A DNA stretch of 6,594 nt, taken from positions 1 to 6,594 of the forward strand of contig JAUMYK010000042.1 in assembly GCA_030528665.1 (NCBI GenBank), in the 5' to 3' direction. This stretch comes from a bacterium. GTDB lineage: Bacteria > Patescibacteria > JAEDAM01 > Absconditabacterales > Absconditicoccaceae. The notes below the pieces were generated by a model. That model did not search any database. It saw only the letters and a program-made list of their open reading frames with translations, and was not told the DNA's origin. Position numbers and translations under genes: made by a program. Position 1 is the first letter of the stretch. The number at the start of each line of letters is the position of its first letter. This document shows positions 54-6,594 of the stretch, in pieces.

Positions 54-1298
54 TTATTTTTTTGTTGGAATTTTTCGTTTCCCATTTTGGAAGAAGGTTT
101 CTTGACTACCATCTGCACGGACTCCTGTAATGCAGAGTTCCTCATCTCCTACCATAAAATCCACATGGATGATGCTTTCGTTCACGCCAAGCTGATCTTT
201 TTGTTCTGAAGTTAGGGTGTTTCCTTCTTTAATTGTCGTAGGATAGGCGTTTCATAGCGCAAAGTGGCAGCTCGCATTTTCATCAAAGAGGGTATTGGAA
301 AAGATGATCCCTGATTGATAAATTGGTGAATTGATAGGTACGATTGCAACTTCTCCGAGTCTTTTAGCGTTTTGGTCAGTAGCAAGCAGGTTTTTGAGTA
401 CTTCATAGCCTTTTTCTGCCCAGAAGTCTATGACTGCTCCGTTTTCAAATTTGAAGCCAAAGTTTTCTATGATCTTTCCAGCGTACTCGAGAGGGAATGT
501 TGACTGAAGTATGCCGTCTACTCCGTACTTGTGTGGCATAGAAAATACTTCTTCGGTTGGGAGGTTTGCGCAGAAGGGGATTCAGTTTTGAGTTTTTTCT
601 CCAGCTGCGATCCAGTGATGTCATTCTGGGAGTTGTACCCAGAGATTTGTTGTACTACTTAGGTAGTGGAGTTTTTCGAAATTTTGGGTATTGAGATAGG
701 TGACATAGCTGTTGAGTTGATCAAGGTGCTGGTGCCATGCGGCTAGAGGATTGTCTTGATCGATTCTTGTGAGTTGAAAGATTTGCATTCGTAGTTTGTG
801 GATATTTTTGCTGCTTTCCTCTGTTTTATAGATAGCATTTGCCCATCCTGCTGTTGGTATTGCTGCTATTGTTCGATTGACTGCGTTTTCTGAGATGAGT
901 TTACGGTAGGCTTGTTTAGATTTTGCAAGTGTTGCTGATGCTCTGCTGATTTTCTGTGGATCGATATCATTGAAGAGATTGGGATCGGTCATATAGAGTG
1001 CAATTTGTGCGCAGTTTGATTTAAGCTCTGCAGTATAGCCATCTTCGAGCCACTGTGGGTGGAGGTCTAGTACCTCCTCTGGTGCCATTTGGTATTTAAT
1101 GAGATCAAGTTCTTCAGATCTTCGCCTATAAAAAATCTGTTGTGCTCATGCTTTGTAGGCTTCTTTGGTCAAAAGTTGTACGAAGTGATGGGATTCAAGT
1201 GGTGCATTGATGATAAGGTTTTGTCCTGATTGGAGGTTGACACCAAAGCGGACAATGAGTTCTGCGTATTCTTGTTGCATTTGTTCAAAAGTTTTCAT
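54..1298 (-). CDS. ampS: M29 family metalloaminopeptidase (AmpS/AmpT/PepS type)
   Basis: This 414-residue cytoplasmic aminopeptidase should remove N-terminal residues from peptides using a two-metal centre. Reading TGA as Gly gives one uninterrupted frame with four TGA codons (residues 51, 226, 239, 349), from ATG to TAA. The M29 signatures are all visible: NLPTEEVF with Glu250, RLGEV with Glu316, LFDENASCH with Glu340 and His345, and IHVDF with His378 and Asp380. From memory, T. thermophilus AmpT uses Glu250, Glu316, His345, His376 and Asp378, so the numbering is nearly identical and the length (about 410) is normal. The start is the first ATG of the frame and gives the expected N-terminus (MKTFEQMQQEYAELIVRFG). 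No Shine-Dalgarno is visible. It lies 37 bases after the lipoprotein gene with no clear promoter between, so cotranscription is likely. The symbol is by family only. Confidence 0.93.
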
Positions 1299-1321
1299 TG
1301 TGAGGATAAGAAAAGAGATAA

Positions 1322-1337
1322 AAATCTGATCAGATTT
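1322..1337. repeat. 16-base perfect palindrome at the end of the lipoprotein gene
   Basis: AAATCTGATCAGATTT is a perfect palindrome that overlaps the TAA stop codon of the lipoprotein gene and lies 24 bases before the aminopeptidase start. On the minus strand it runs into TTTTTATCTC. As RNA it would give only a short AT-rich stem, so it is a weak or attenuating terminator at best. It could also be an operator or a chance feature. Confidence 0.4.
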
Positions 1338-3735
1338 ATGTTTTTTTTAGTTTGGTGAGGTTTCCACCTCGCTCCAGCATATCAAAGTTACTCCCTCTTT
1401 CAAAGCGTTTCAAAAAGTAGCTATTCCCAGTATCGGGGTGGCGTGGATCGTAGCTGATATGTGTATTTTGAGGATGTTGATGAGCCTCCATAAAGACTCT
1501 GAAGCTTTTTTCAGGAGTATGTTTCCAGCTCAGCTTTGCATAGGGTTCAAAGGCTTCGTTGAATTTAAAACTGATGGTATAAACAAATGCTGGATCAAAC
1601 TCAGGTAGCCAATACTCAAGAAAATCAGCTTTCTCTTGTTGATTAAAATTCATTGCGTTGAGTTTGTGTTCAAGAAAGTGGGGAATATCTTTACCATCTA
1701 CGCTCCATCAGAAGGTGTTGTTACGATAGTTTCATCGGAAGGTAGCGTAGTACAGATATGGGAACTGCTCTCCATCAACGGTGATATTGCTATTTTTATC
1801 TGTGCTGAACTCCCATGTGGTATTCTTGGTAAAGCTTGGTATCAGGGTTGTAAAGCTACTTTTTTCAGGGAGAGTGATGGTCAGTTCATTAGCTCTTTCT
1901 TGTTGATCATAGGTATAAATTACTGGTTTGCAACCGCCTGCTCCATGTGCAAATTCTACTCCTGAGGCAGGATAGATATAGTAGTAGTGTTCAACTGGAC
2001 TTTTCTGAATATTGTAGAGAGGGAGGATCTTACTATTGAAGATGATGCTATCATTACTGTAAGGATTTCACTCTGGAGCAAGGTCAGCTTTTTTCATTTT
2101 TTCTTCGCTTAGCCAAAGTGAGTCATGGAGTGCTTTGATTCTAAAATCAGTTTTTTCTCAGCAGGTATTGTCAAGAAAAACTCCTCGTTGTCCCATTGTG
2201 CAATAGATTGTTTTGGAGAGTTTGAGATCATGAACATATCATTTTTCATCCATTATTAGAGGCTCCTGGCTATAGAATACTGCTTCAGGAGTTTGGAGAT
2301 CTGATGGTTTTGTATAGATGAGTGTGAGATTTGGATGAGCTTTAAATCTGAGGAAGTATTTCTCAAAGAGCATCCCAGTTTTTTTGATATGTTCTGTAAT
2401 TTGCGCTTCTGCTGCTTGTTTATCCTCAAAGATATGGAAAAAATTTTTGTATGATCCGTAGTCTTCGTCTTCGTTTTTTTGATCAAAAGTCGTATTTTGA
2501 AGCGTATAGCTTTCTCCTAAAAAGTTGAGTGTTTGTGGGAGTTGGAGTTCCTTGTGAGTGAGAACAGTTTGTGCTCTTTCCGTATCCATGCAGCTATAGT
2601 CGGTTTGTTGACTGATGTTATAGTCAGGATGTGCATGTTTTCGAGAGATACGGCTATTCATGAAAAAATAGTCAATTTTTATTATCAGTTCTAATGCTGC
2701 ATTATATACGAGTGTTGTACTTTCCTCTTCTTCGCTGTTGGTATGAAAGCTTTGGAGGTATCGGTTTTTATAGTTTTTGATAGGTTTTTTGGGATCAAAA
2801 CAGAAGGTATCAAAGCAAAGTTTTGGATCAAATCCGTAATCTTGATAACTCATATTTTCCAAATCAATGGTGATATACAGATCTGTCTCCTGTCCAATAT
2901 AATTATCATTTTCGTCGTAGTGAGCCTCCTCTCAGTAGCTGAGGATTTGGAGTGTTTGCTTTTTTGCAAGCTTATTTCTTAGCATAGTATTGATCATCTC
3001 TGTGGTAGTTGGTAGTTCTTCAGCTTTTTTTTCCTCTTCATATGCTCTGATGTAGACGGTATCTGGTTTGCGTAGTGATCAGAGTGGGAGATCAATGCCA
3101 TTTCAGGTTGGCATGAAGAGTTCGGATTCATCCTTTCGTTCTGAGGTTTTTTGGATATGGAGTCCGTTTTTTGTTCGTTGTACTTGAAAATCTTTTGTAA
3201 AATCTCCTGAGACAGTAAGTTTTGGTTTACTTCGTGGAGTATTTCTTATGAGGTCTGGGTTAGGTTTGTTGATATTGGGTTTTTGGTTGGTAGTTCCTGT
3301 AGTAGCAAAGAGTTCAATCAGGCTGTTTTGTTCACTAAGAGGAAGATGGATATTTTCAAAAATAAGGGAAATCTGACTATTTTTTTCTTCATCGATGTGA
3401 TAGCGATTGGTATCATAGCTATATGATTCAAGGGGACTCTGAGGTGTTTGGTCACTAAAAGTGTAGGTATAGGTATCATCTTTACAGGTATGCCAGGTAG
3501 GATCTTCTGGGGCTGTGGTGCTGCTTCCTGTGCCATTTTTGAGTACACATTCTTGATAATTGAGTGGCCAATATACGAGTTCTCTGTTGAGTTGACTAAA
3601 GTCATTGTGTGTGATGGGGATGGCTTGAGTGATGTTGTCTCAGCTTTCAATACTAGGATGGCTGGTTTCTGGGCTACAAGCGCTGAGTCCTATCCCTAGG
3701 ATGAGTCAGAGCATAAGGAGAAAATTTTTATTCAT
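1336..3735 (-). CDS. Large predicted surface lipoprotein with C-terminal KPVIY-type domain
   Basis: Function unknown. This is a 799-residue frame with ten TGA codons read as Gly (residues 10, 32, 211, 219, 268, 499, 526, 556, 668, 676), ending in TAA. The N-terminus is a lipoprotein signal: a short charged start, the hydrophobic run FLLMLGLILGIGL, and the lipobox Leu17-Ser18-Ala19-Cys20. The mature protein should be lipid-anchored outside the cytoplasmic membrane. Residues about 145-185 form a Pro/Asn/Thr-rich linker. Residues about 190-580 are a mixed, Asp/Glu- and Tyr-rich region that I do not recognise. Residues about 583-799 match the pattern of an uncharacterised domain, recalled from other CPR bacteria and Firmicutes, that begins CKPVIY(L)Y and continues with PYLYY, GWSVDGKDIPHFLE, EKADFLEYWLPEF and FERGSNFDMLERGG. 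Here it starts GGCKPVIYTY at residue 600. A good promoter lies just upstream. No Shine-Dalgarno is visible. Confidence 0.85.
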
Positions 3736-3769
3736 CTTTTGAGGGGTAAAGGGATAAAAGCTTTTTCTC

Positions 3770-3797
3770 ATTATATGCGCCTTTACGGAAATTTCAA
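3770..3797 (-). promoter_or_regulatory. Promoter of the lipoprotein gene
   Basis: On the minus strand TTGAAA (3797-3792) is followed after 16 bases by a perfect TATAAT (3775-3770). Transcription would begin near 3763, leaving a leader of about 28 bases before the ATG at 3735. Further upstream the minus strand is A-rich (about 3800-3836, including a T7-A6 run), which could act as an UP element. The rest of the 188-base gap (3736-3923) holds no gene. I see no convincing terminator for the metallopeptidase gene ending at 3924, only a weak TACTC/GAGTA stem near 3862-3879 without a T tract. Confidence 0.65.
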
Positions 3798-3923
3798 GTC
3801 AGATTTCTTGTTTCTCTTTTCCATTTGCATTTTTTAAAAAAAGCTGAACATCTCTAAATTCCTACTCCTTATAGTGAGTATGTTGTTTTTGTTAGCTTAT
3901 CTCTGGTCTGGTATGATAGTATA

Positions 3924-5048
3924 TTAGTAGTCTGTTTGGTCTGTCCAGATTGTGTAGAGGTTGTTTAAGATTTGAAAACGTAGTCCTACGAGTTCTGGAT
4001 ACTGGTAGAAAAAGAGTTGTTTTTGGTCTATAGGATTGTCTGGATTGAGCTGATCTCTCGGGGTGATGATAAATGCTGTAAAGCTTTCTGCGAAGTCTTC
4101 ATCTGGATTGCTCGCTGCATAGTTGTTGATGAAAGCAGATTGGTTGAGTTGATAAAATGTTAGGATCTCCTTTGGTGAACGATCAGTATTTTGAATCCAG
4201 TCTTTGTCTACCTTTCTCCAAAACTGATAAGCAAAATGCTGGAGATAGCTCCATGGTGTATGACAGTCATAGCTCATCTCTGATCGGCATGCGAAGATAT
4301 TGCCATAGTGTTTTTTATCTAAAGAAAAGAGATGTGCAAATTCATGCAAAAGTGTAAGGGTGGAAAAAGGTTCTTCATAGCCTATATTTTCTAGATCTAT
4401 GCCAAAAATATTGTAATGGTCAGGATTGAGCAAGGTTCCAACTCATCTGCTGGCATCAATATAGCCTGCATCATCTCCTCCATGATGGATATAATAGTTT
4501 TTGAGCTGTTTTCTCCATGGAGTAGGAATAATGCTGGTGAAGTAGTCCCAAAGTTCTTCAGCAAGGAGTTTTTCCTCCTCATTGAGTCCTTGATTTTCTC
4601 TCAGCTTGATCTGATCTCCATTGATCTGATATTTGGCTAGTAGTGTTTCATCTTCCTCATCCTCTACTTCGTGATCTTCTATTCATCTGTCATAGTTTGT
4701 GCTTAGAGCGAGGTCTTCATGAGTATCGTATCATTCTTCATCTTCTAGACCATCAAAAGTTTTGAGTTCCTCATATGCATTTCTCCATGGGCTCTCAGAG
4801 CTTGGATCAAAGAGTGCATAAGCAATCTCATCTCCTTGTGTGCCACACTCTCGTATTGTTTTGCAGTCAGATCATTTGGGCACTTGCGCTTGGTCATCAA
4901 TATTGAGTTGTGCTTCAATCCTAAAAGGGAGAGTTTCATTTTGATCTTGAAAGAGTGGAAAGAATACACCTCAGAGTATATAGCTTCAGATCAGGAGTAT
5001 GCTTGCAGTCAGGATCAGGCGTATGAAGGATCGTATTCTGCGATGCAT
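3924..5048 (-). CDS. Membrane-anchored HExxH zinc metallopeptidase
   Basis: A predicted zinc endopeptidase of 374 residues, with six TGA codons read as Gly (residues 21, 26, 59, 106, 122, 202). Residues 1-7 are basic (MHRRIRS) and residues 8-30 are one hydrophobic segment, so the protein is probably tethered with its catalytic part outside. Residues about 97-135 form a strongly acidic linker. The catalytic domain covers about 140-374: HEFAH at 235-239 supplies His235, Glu236 and His239, and DEDFAESF places Glu321 as the likely third metal ligand. The pairing of HEFxH with a later NYA...DEDFAE motif resembles HExxH proteins of the anthrax lethal factor/PPEP or Peptidase_Mx type, recalled from memory; the exact family is unsure. 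The start is the only ATG after the upstream in-frame TAA that also keeps the hydrophobic segment. It lies 24 bases after the RNase H gene with no promoter between, so it is probably in that operon. No Shine-Dalgarno is visible. Confidence 0.87.
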
Positions 5049-5072
5049 GGGGATGTAGTGTATGTTAAAATA

Positions 5073-5681
5073 TTATTTTCTTCCAAAATCTGCTGGGATT
5101 TCTCACCACTCTTTGGTATTCCATTTGAGAATTTTTGTTGAAAAGCTATTGTTTGCAAGTCGAGATTCTGCTCTTTTGATCAGTTCAAAGGTATGATGAT
5201 GGTCTCAGTGTGATAAAAAATTCGTTTTACATTTGCCTTCAAGAATCCAATTGATCGCTATTTTTGAGTCAGAATAGAGTGCAAAGTCAGAATTGTTTTC
5301 TTTTAAATAGGCTAGACCATGTACAAGTGCCAAAAATTCTCCAATATTGTTAGTTCCTTTTCCTACTTTGACCTGAAAAATTGTTTTTTGGCTCAGGAGA
5401 TCGATTCACTGATACTCTAGGATACCAGTGGCACTTGAACATGCTGCATCTACGGCAATGCTCGTTTTGACAAAGGGAAGGTCTTTTTCATGCCACTTTT
5501 TTTCTGGTTGATAGTGAATTTCCCATCACTGTTCCCAGGCTTGTTGAGCTAGAGATGCTGTTTTAAAACTTTTGTATTTTGCGCCTTTGATACCTGTAAC
5601 GAGTGGTTTGACTTTATCCCAGGAACTGAAAATTCCCTTTTTTTTCCCCTCCCAAATGACATATCGTTTTTGTTCAGCCAT
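5073..5681 (-). CDS. rnhA: Ribonuclease HI with N-terminal viroplasmin-like domain
   Basis: It cleaves the RNA strand of RNA:DNA hybrids, such as primers and R-loops, in the cytoplasm. The 202 residues include four TGA codons read as Gly (52, 92, 159, 193). Residues 1-52 are the small hybrid-binding domain, with YVIWEGKKKGIFSSWDKV and GAKYKSFKT. Residues 72-202 are the RNase H fold, with catalytic acids Asp78 (IAVDAACS), Glu115 (NNIGEFLAL), Asp138 (LYSDSK) and Asp198 (EIPADFGRK). The C-terminal IPADFGRK ending is typical of the viroplasmin-domain subgroup. Two of its conserved glycines, YQ-G-ID and W-G-EIPAD, are encoded by TGA. The ATG at 5681 is chosen because MAEQKRYVIWEG begins the domain directly. 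Reading further upstream only translates the T-rich leader. It is first in a likely two-gene operon with the metallopeptidase. Confidence 0.95.
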
Positions 5682-5801: not shown

Positions 5802-5819
5802 CATTTCTCAAAGAAATGA
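5801..5819. repeat. Perfect 8-bp hairpin beside the terminator
   Basis: TCATTTCT and AGAAATGA pair perfectly around a CAA loop. The hairpin abuts the terminator stem; the two share base 5801. It has no T tract of its own on either strand. It may be the last structural element of the RNA ahead of its terminator. Confidence 0.5.
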
Positions 5820-5865
5820 AAACTATAGACTCAGCCCCAAACATTCGAGGATTGCGGATTGCAAC

Positions 5866-5909
5866 TATCTAATGCTCTAGGCATTCCTAGAACTTTTGTG
5901 TATTAGATA
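5866..5909. repeat. Nested inverted repeat
   Basis: An outer pair, TATCTAAT (5866-5873) with ATTAGATA (5902-5909), encloses an inner hairpin, TCTAGG (5876-5881) with CCTAGA (5886-5891), around a four-base loop. Ten unpaired bases lie on one side and two on the other. Such nesting is more RNA-like than a lone short stem. Confidence 0.45.
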
Positions 5910-5918
5910 CTGTGGATG

Positions 5919-5938
5919 TACTATGTTTAGAGATAGTA
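5919..5938. repeat. Short hairpin TACTAT/ATAGTA
   Basis: TACTAT (5919-5924) and ATAGTA (5933-5938) pair around an eight-base loop, ten bases from the nested inverted repeat at 5866-5909. It is AT-rich and weak alone, and is listed as part of the hairpin series in this region. Confidence 0.3.
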
Positions 5939-6005
5939 TAGACAATTTCCATAGTTTTTTGCACGCTATAGTCTTTGTCCAGGGAATATCAATCATAATA
6001 AGATA

Positions 6006-6404
6006 CTAACGCTGCCTTCTAACTTGCAGGTTTGCATTGCTTAAAATGATATTACATTCAATAGGTAGTGCGCTTAGCTCCATAGCCAGATGATAGTAAT
6101 TGCTCTTTACCTCACTCCTAAATCTCAAGAATACTGTTAGAAAGTAGTTCAGGATTTGATCAATGTTGAGGCAAGAAAGGCAAGTACTAGGTGCTCATCT
6201 TCTCTTTTTCAAATGCTCTTGCTCGGCATTTAGCAGGCGAGAGTAGAGTGCTATCCTCCTGATAGAAACTCTTTTGAAAAACTTAAGTAGTATAAGCTCA
6301 ATTCTTCTTTTACCAGAAAGTAAAGAGAAAAATCTGACTTTGCTCATTTGTTGACTTCAAAGGAGCTCTTGATGCTTACTTTTTTTGATAAAGTAAGGTA
6401 TCAT
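6006..6404 (-). CDS. Doubtful small basic protein (code 25 frame)
   Basis: With TGA as Gly this frame is open for 139 codons (6425-6006) and, from the ATG at 6404, would encode 132 residues ending in TAG. The product is very basic and Leu/Ser-rich (for example FFSLLSGKRRIELILLKFFK). I recognise no family. Against it: only one Asp and few Gly, unlike the four certain genes; frequent AGG; no Shine-Dalgarno; and a TAG stop where the others use TAA. After the TAG the same frame stays open for another 42 codons to 5877, including MIDIPWTKTIACKKLW, so an older gene broken by a stop is possible. It lies inside the predicted transcript, about 115 bases from its start. It competes with the RNA reading of the same region. 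Confidence 0.22.
6375..6397. repeat. Perfect 8-bp hairpin CTTACTTT/AAAGTAAG
   Basis: CTTACTTT (6375-6382) and AAAGTAAG (6390-6397) pair perfectly around a seven-base loop. It lies in the 5' part of the predicted transcript, just inside the start of the doubtful frame at 6404-6006, where it might affect translation if that frame is real. Confidence 0.4.
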
Positions 6405-6419
6405 CTTAACTACTCAAGG

Positions 6420-6433
6420 GGAAGCTTACTTCC
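6420..6433. repeat. Short hairpin GGAAG/CTTCC
   Basis: GGAAG (6420-6424) and CTTCC (6429-6433) pair around a four-base loop in the leader part of the predicted transcript. It is minor evidence of structure. Confidence 0.3.
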
Positions 6434-6525
6434 TATAATCTATAGTGTTTATTAAAGATCATTTCTTTGTAGATCATCATGACATGGCTCCGATGATTCA
6501 GAGTGTTTGTCTTGATGACGATATG

Positions 6526-6553
6526 ATTATACTCCAAAATAAAAATAATGCAA
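6526..6553 (-). promoter_or_regulatory. Promoter of the upstream unidentified transcript
   Basis: On the minus strand TTGCAT (6553-6548), a 16-base T-rich spacer and a perfect TATAAT (6531-6526). The predicted start is near 6519. The transcript would run to the terminator at 5801-5767. The 41 bases beyond it (6554-6594) are A/T-rich and hold no gene I can support. Confidence 0.6.
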
Positions 6554-6594
6554 ATTTTTTAGTACTTTTTTGATAGGAAATGAGAAAGTCAAGT

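Follow-up and report, generated by a model that had tools for sequence, protein, structure and literature searches.

Four adjoining genes on the minus strand of a 6,594-nucleotide stretch of bacterial DNA, called the window here at its full length, are all broken under code 11 and all become single open frames under table 25. The locus thus raises the question of which genetic code its genes use. The preliminary description counted 24 in-frame TGA codons between positions 54 and 5681, read them as glycine, took TAA as the stop of all four genes and assigned the whole to a "code 25 pattern". The recount returned exactly 4, 10, 6 and 4 TGA codons, and the proposed span agrees with the gene coordinates (Table 1). 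Each of the four genes begins with ATG and ends with TAA, and none contains an internal TAA or TAG. With TGA as a sense codon, the longest stop-free run in the whole window is 841 codons. The longest runs in 300 simulated first-order Markov sequences had a maximum of 302 and a mean of 177 codons, and the open frames are therefore not due to chance. When TGA is read as a stop, as in code 11, no run exceeds 230 codons, against a simulated maximum of 175. An alternative RNase H start exists at an upstream ATG at 5804; the start at 5681 fits the family length, with NF046109 matched from its position 1.

Table 1 Positions of the genes and of selected CGA codons in the window.
Feature	Position	Strand	Remarks
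M29 aminopeptidase, 414 aa	54-1298	minus	ORF under table 25, 4 in-frame TGA
Lipoprotein, 811 aa	1336-3771	minus	ORF under table 25, 10 in-frame TGA
Putative zinc metallopeptidase, 374 aa	3924-5048	minus	ORF under table 25, 6 in-frame TGA
RNase H, 202 aa, with an N-terminal Cauli_VI domain	5073-5681	minus	ORF under table 25, 4 in-frame TGA
CGA codon, M29 residue 142	873-875	minus	Invariant Trp column, Trp in 35/35 standard-code homologs
CGA codon, RNase H residue 174	5160-5162	minus	Invariant Trp column, Trp in 13/13
CGA codon, lipoprotein residue 801	1369-1371	minus	Trp of the conserved VVEWGG motif, 10/10 homologs (L038-L047)
CGA codons in 54-5681, examples	75-77, 789-791, 873-875, 1122-1124, 1369-1371, 5160-5162	minus	

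Four genes that code 11 breaks could also arise in an organism with the standard code, through gene decay, errors in sequencing or programmed readthrough. The interruptions, however, consist of 24 TGA and no TAA or TAG codons, and each gene retains one open frame. Two public proteins, P0005 (M29) and P0125 (RNase H), are 98% identical to the window proteins and differ from them by further substitutions, yet carry tryptophan at the same four TGA sites of each protein. The probability left to the standard code is negligible.

The meaning of each codon was read from homologs. TGA and CGA were masked in the query and every codon was scored against the homolog columns. The profile rows came from organisms that were chosen by name and assumed to use the standard code. 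The M29 profile had 35 rows, made up of 26 named-organism proteins (among 120 matches listed) and nine genome-contig loci, and the RNase H profile used the 13 named-organism proteins among 120 matches listed. Summed over the eight TGA columns, glycine scores +19.5 bits, followed by asparagine at −9.0 bits, with arginine at −25.4 and tryptophan at −28.8 bits. These scores support the assignment of UGA to glycine. The M29 TGA codons correspond to residues 51, 226, 239 and 349, where glycine occupies 32/35, 25/35, 32/35 and 35/35 rows, respectively. The RNase H TGA codons correspond to residues 52, 92, 159 and 193, and two of these four columns contain glycine in 13/13 rows. Column 52 (five Asn, four Ser, two Gly, one Thr and one Lys of 13) does not favor glycine and column 159 is variable with glycine in 0/13, but among 25 closer relatives column 52 contains 22 Gly and three Trp. 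Invariant glycine columns number 24 among the 611 columns and hold three of the eight TGA codons (hypergeometric P = 0.0026). In the C-terminal domain of the lipoprotein, TGA688 faces glycine in 10/10 homologs and TGA680, in a poorly conserved stretch, faces it in none. The expectation that the TGA columns would align with glycine is borne out overall, and fails at two of the eight columns and at lipoprotein TGA680. TGA supplies 24 of the 93 glycine codons (26%). The glycine columns are at odds with both selenocysteine and random nonsense at the TGA codons.

Code 4, in which UGA is tryptophan, seems to be assumed by some public gene calls and also gives open frames. It would match the tryptophans in P0005 and P0125, and it raises the metallopeptidase Pfam score by 0.5 bits. 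Against it stand the −28.8 bits of tryptophan at the eight TGA columns and the fall of the PF02073 score for M29 from 487.4 to 469.8 bits. A tryptophan reading of UGA is highly improbable, and the tryptophans of P0005 and P0125 are best explained as the product of code-4 calling on conserved TGA codons. The Cauli_VI domain scores (55.8 versus 55.7) do not discriminate between the two meanings.

The same codon scan flagged CGA, a signal absent from the preliminary description. The four genes contain 17 CGA and no CGG among 1801 codons, and CGA falls on all-Trp columns (filled rows) at six of eight alignable sites, four of four in M29, one of two in RNase H and one of two in the lipoprotein. Tryptophan is found in 35/35 rows at each of M29 CGA59, CGA142 and CGA170, in 31/31 filled rows (four gaps) at CGA408, in 13/13 at RNase H CGA174 and in 10/10 at lipoprotein CGA801. 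The remaining two sites lack tryptophan: the RNase H CGA6 column contains 12 Phe and one Tyr, and lipoprotein CGA679 faces tryptophan in no homolog. The ten lipoprotein homologs come from one plasmid and six genomes and thus are not all independent. Over the six M29 and RNase H columns, tryptophan sums to +30.1 bits and arginine to −22.6 bits. Fourteen of the 611 columns are invariant tryptophan, encoded by TGG at nine and by CGA at five, and five of the six CGA codons are located in them (hypergeometric P = 1.7e-8). Five further codons did not recover their standard residue in the scan: CAA, for which Lys (27.4) outscores Gln (18.7) over 27 columns, CAG (nine columns, Glu), and GTT, TGC and AGG on one to four columns each. 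None of these five strongly rejects its standard residue for an invariant one, and they are interpreted as ordinary exchanges of similar residues or small samples.

Table 25 taken exactly, with UGA as glycine and CGA as arginine, opens all four genes, is the code that a 2026 genome paper describes for a member of this family (PMC13059738) and would suit the two alignable CGA columns without tryptophan. It conflicts with the six all-Trp columns and with the −22.6 bits for arginine, and it is very unlikely to be the code of these genes. The codons other than UGA are therefore not all standard in the window, and CGA is the exception. Because CGA is tryptophan in these genes, table 25 also yields wrong residues, up to 17 of them. 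The "code 25 pattern" stands for UGA and is incomplete for CGA. CGG is unused in the four genes and its meaning cannot be read from them.

Profile and structure scores calculated under the alternative codes rank the codes in the same way. The PF02073 score of M29 is 469.8 bits with TGA as Trp and CGA as Arg, 487.4 with Gly and Arg, and 508.6 with Gly and Trp. Reading CGA as tryptophan raises the best PDB match of M29 (2ayi) from 312.1 to 331.7, the best PDB match of RNase H (6dmn) from 114 to 120.5, and the NF046109 score of RNase H from 202.4 to 209.8. The metallopeptidase match to PF15890 is 25.6 bits (Gly/Arg), exactly the cut-off, and becomes 26.1 (Trp/Arg) or 26.6 bits (Gly/Trp), shifts that are too small to count. 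The TGA and CGA columns of this protein are mostly uninformative in its relatives.

Both codon changes recur in relatives of the window proteins. The counts cover 19 of 37 M29 relatives (those dropped were the near-identical P0005 and 17 in which no swap occurs) and 38 of 42 RNase H relatives (those dropped were the near-identical P0125 and three in which no swap occurs). Swaps are carried by 19/19 M29 and 37/38 RNase H relatives, the exception being P0156. The tryptophan columns contain 88 Trp, 63 Arg and no other residue in M29, and 79 Trp, 143 Arg (143/222) and no other residue in RNase H; these ratios describe swap-bearing relatives only, because rows without a swap were dropped. Misplaced tryptophan occurs in glycine columns (109 cells in M29 and 74 in RNase H) and in three cells of proline columns, and nowhere else. 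Outside tryptophan columns, misplaced arginine is less frequent, with 16 and 2 cells in Lys columns, two in Gly columns and one each in Ala and Asn columns. Arginine is present at all six tryptophan columns in five of the 38 RNase H relatives (P0130, P0133, P0138, P0148 and P0153). The arginines in the relatives' tryptophan columns probably represent CGA or CGG codons, the DNA itself having been read for the window only. The public predicted proteins of the relatives show both codon changes, in the form of what appear to be translation errors.

A tree of 43 M29 proteins places the window protein and the 19 swap-bearing relatives on one side of a branch with 100/100 support and the 23 rows without swaps on the opposite side, in a tree with a midpoint root only. 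The support is still 100/100 after every Trp, Arg and Gly is masked. P0037 lies inside the group and has tryptophan in 14 glycine columns, a sign of abundant UGA, and arginine in 0/8 tryptophan columns, and its nearest tree neighbor, P0039, has arginine at four tryptophan columns. The lack of arginine in the tryptophan columns of P0037 indicates that CGR use varies within the group.

The nearest organism-named RNase H relatives among the matches listed belong to Candidatus Absconditabacterales (P0136, P0140 and P0150, 60-64% identity). These three NCBI-sourced proteins have arginine at five of six invariant tryptophan columns, as table 25 would give. When genome contigs were scanned with the M29 protein, nine loci were matched, all of Bacillota/Fusobacteria and none in a genome of the Absconditabacteria. 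The Absconditabacterales RNase H relatives, together with CGA as tryptophan, favor Absconditabacteria over Gracilibacteria. The comparison, in which none of the organism-named proteins was gracilibacterial, points to Absconditabacteria as the probable source group of a window that holds no 16S or marker gene.

The lipoprotein has a lipobox-like LSAC motif, could start at an inner Met 13 in place of the first of its 811 residues, and contains eight CGA codons beside its TGA codons. Its residues ~614-807 form a C-terminal domain also present in Bacillota proteins, for which no Pfam match was found at E 1. The domain shares 28.8% identity (E 1e-7) with a BspA-type protein of Ruminococcus albus plasmid pRUMAL02 and also occurs in 6/398 genomes, of the phylum of Soehngenia. 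The metallopeptidase has a HEFAH motif and three CGA codons beside its six TGA codons. Its weak Pfam match to ATLF, at 13.8 bits, falls under the cut-off of 27.4 and is not read as a sign of kinship. ARAGORN found no tRNA in the window, and there was no Rfam match in it at the gathering threshold. Under code 25 plus CGA as tryptophan, the ~800 bases at 5805-6594 contain no convincing ORF; this region gave no Rfam match and no tRNA, and the three ORFs tried there gave no Pfam match. A frame at 6426-6593 runs past the window edge.

Instead of an absconditabacterial chromosome, the source of the window could be a phage or plasmid that such a bacterium carries, or a gracilibacterium. Code-25 phages of these hosts have been described (PMC10746230, PMC13059738), and no gene in the window is a chromosomal marker. 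Scans of viral contigs with the RNase H and M29 alignments as queries gave six and 20 loci, respectively. In eight of these 26 loci, the proportion of long open frames was compared between TGA read as a stop and TGA read as sense. This proportion rises only modestly with TGA as sense in L012, L013, L015 and L036, and frames overlap too heavily to judge in L014, L016, L017 and L037. ARAGORN found one tRNA-Cys and nothing else on these eight loci. RNase H has only distant matches, in four phage records. It is the only one of the four proteins to match a PHROG at E 0.01, and the search of viral contigs yielded no confirmed lipoprotein relative; these last two results argue against a mobile element. 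A gracilibacterial source fits poorly with the available text of a 2021 survey, in which CGA as tryptophan is predicted for Absconditabacteria and only CGG as tryptophan appears in some Gracilibacteria (PMC8629427). Either of these other origins is unlikely.

The expected residues at UGA and CGA, the open frames and the well-supported group of relatives that bear both signals are all observed. The window very probably comes from the chromosome of an uncultured absconditabacterium in which at least two codons depart from the standard code, with UGA as glycine and CGA as tryptophan. Going by published work on the group, a tRNA-Gly whose anticodon is UCA would decode UGA, release factor 2 would have been lost, and a tryptophan-charged tRNA with anticodon UCG would decode CGA.

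A more tentative proposal, in which our confidence falls slightly short of even, is that the CGA/CGG change has, in this part of the Absconditabacteria, passed the published early rare-codon stage and is complete or nearly so in some lineages, where these would be the main or only tryptophan codons at conserved positions. If so, tryptophan decoding would have shifted largely from UGG to CGR beside a UGA that now means glycine, and this shift would ease the clash between UGA and UGG within one codon box. Translation of the group's proteins with table 25 or code 4 systematically puts arginine for tryptophan, and code 4 additionally puts tryptophan for glycine. A lineage with abundant CGA as tryptophan makes a published, thinly sampled prediction directly testable.

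The code is of an already known kind, since UGA as glycine was reported, and CGA and CGG as tryptophan predicted, for Absconditabacteria by Shulgina and Eddy in 2021 (PMC8629427). The text available from that paper points to tRNA(UCG) and tRNA(CCG) for the tryptophan reading and likens the CGA/CGG changes to early stages with rare codons. A 2026 paper again gives CGA and CGG as tryptophan in Absconditabacterales (PMC13092985), and proteomics backs UGA as glycine in one BD1-5 population (PMC4032931). NCBI table 25 (SR1 and Gracilibacteria) shares UGA as glycine with the window and gives CGA as arginine, which is wrong at conserved positions of the window genes. NCBI appears to have added a separate Absconditabacterales table after table 33. 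Gracilibacteria (BD1-5/SN-2) also share UGA as glycine; CGG is tryptophan in some of them, and CGA as tryptophan is not reported for them in the sections of the 2021 survey at hand (PMC8629427). The window resembles the Absconditabacteria code in UGA as glycine, CGA as tryptophan, a low GC content (0.384) and AGA as the main arginine codon (25 of 40 arginine codons, CGA set aside), and it lacks (0/1801 codons) the CGG that is predicted to be tryptophan in that code (PMC8629427). It differs in frequency. CGA makes up 94 per 10,000 codons in the window versus a published <37 per 10,000 in all species of that survey, frequencies that count Pfam-aligned columns (PMC8629427); the Poisson P for 94 versus 37 is 5.6e-4 over the 1801 codons and 0.028 over the 611 aligned columns only. 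One published assembly has CGA at 30 and CGG at 24 versus UGG at 35 per 10,000 (PMC8629427). So far as the literature searched shows, the window goes beyond published work in degree only, with CGA at 94 per 10,000 codons and arginine at 143 of 222 tryptophan-column positions in the RNase H relatives.
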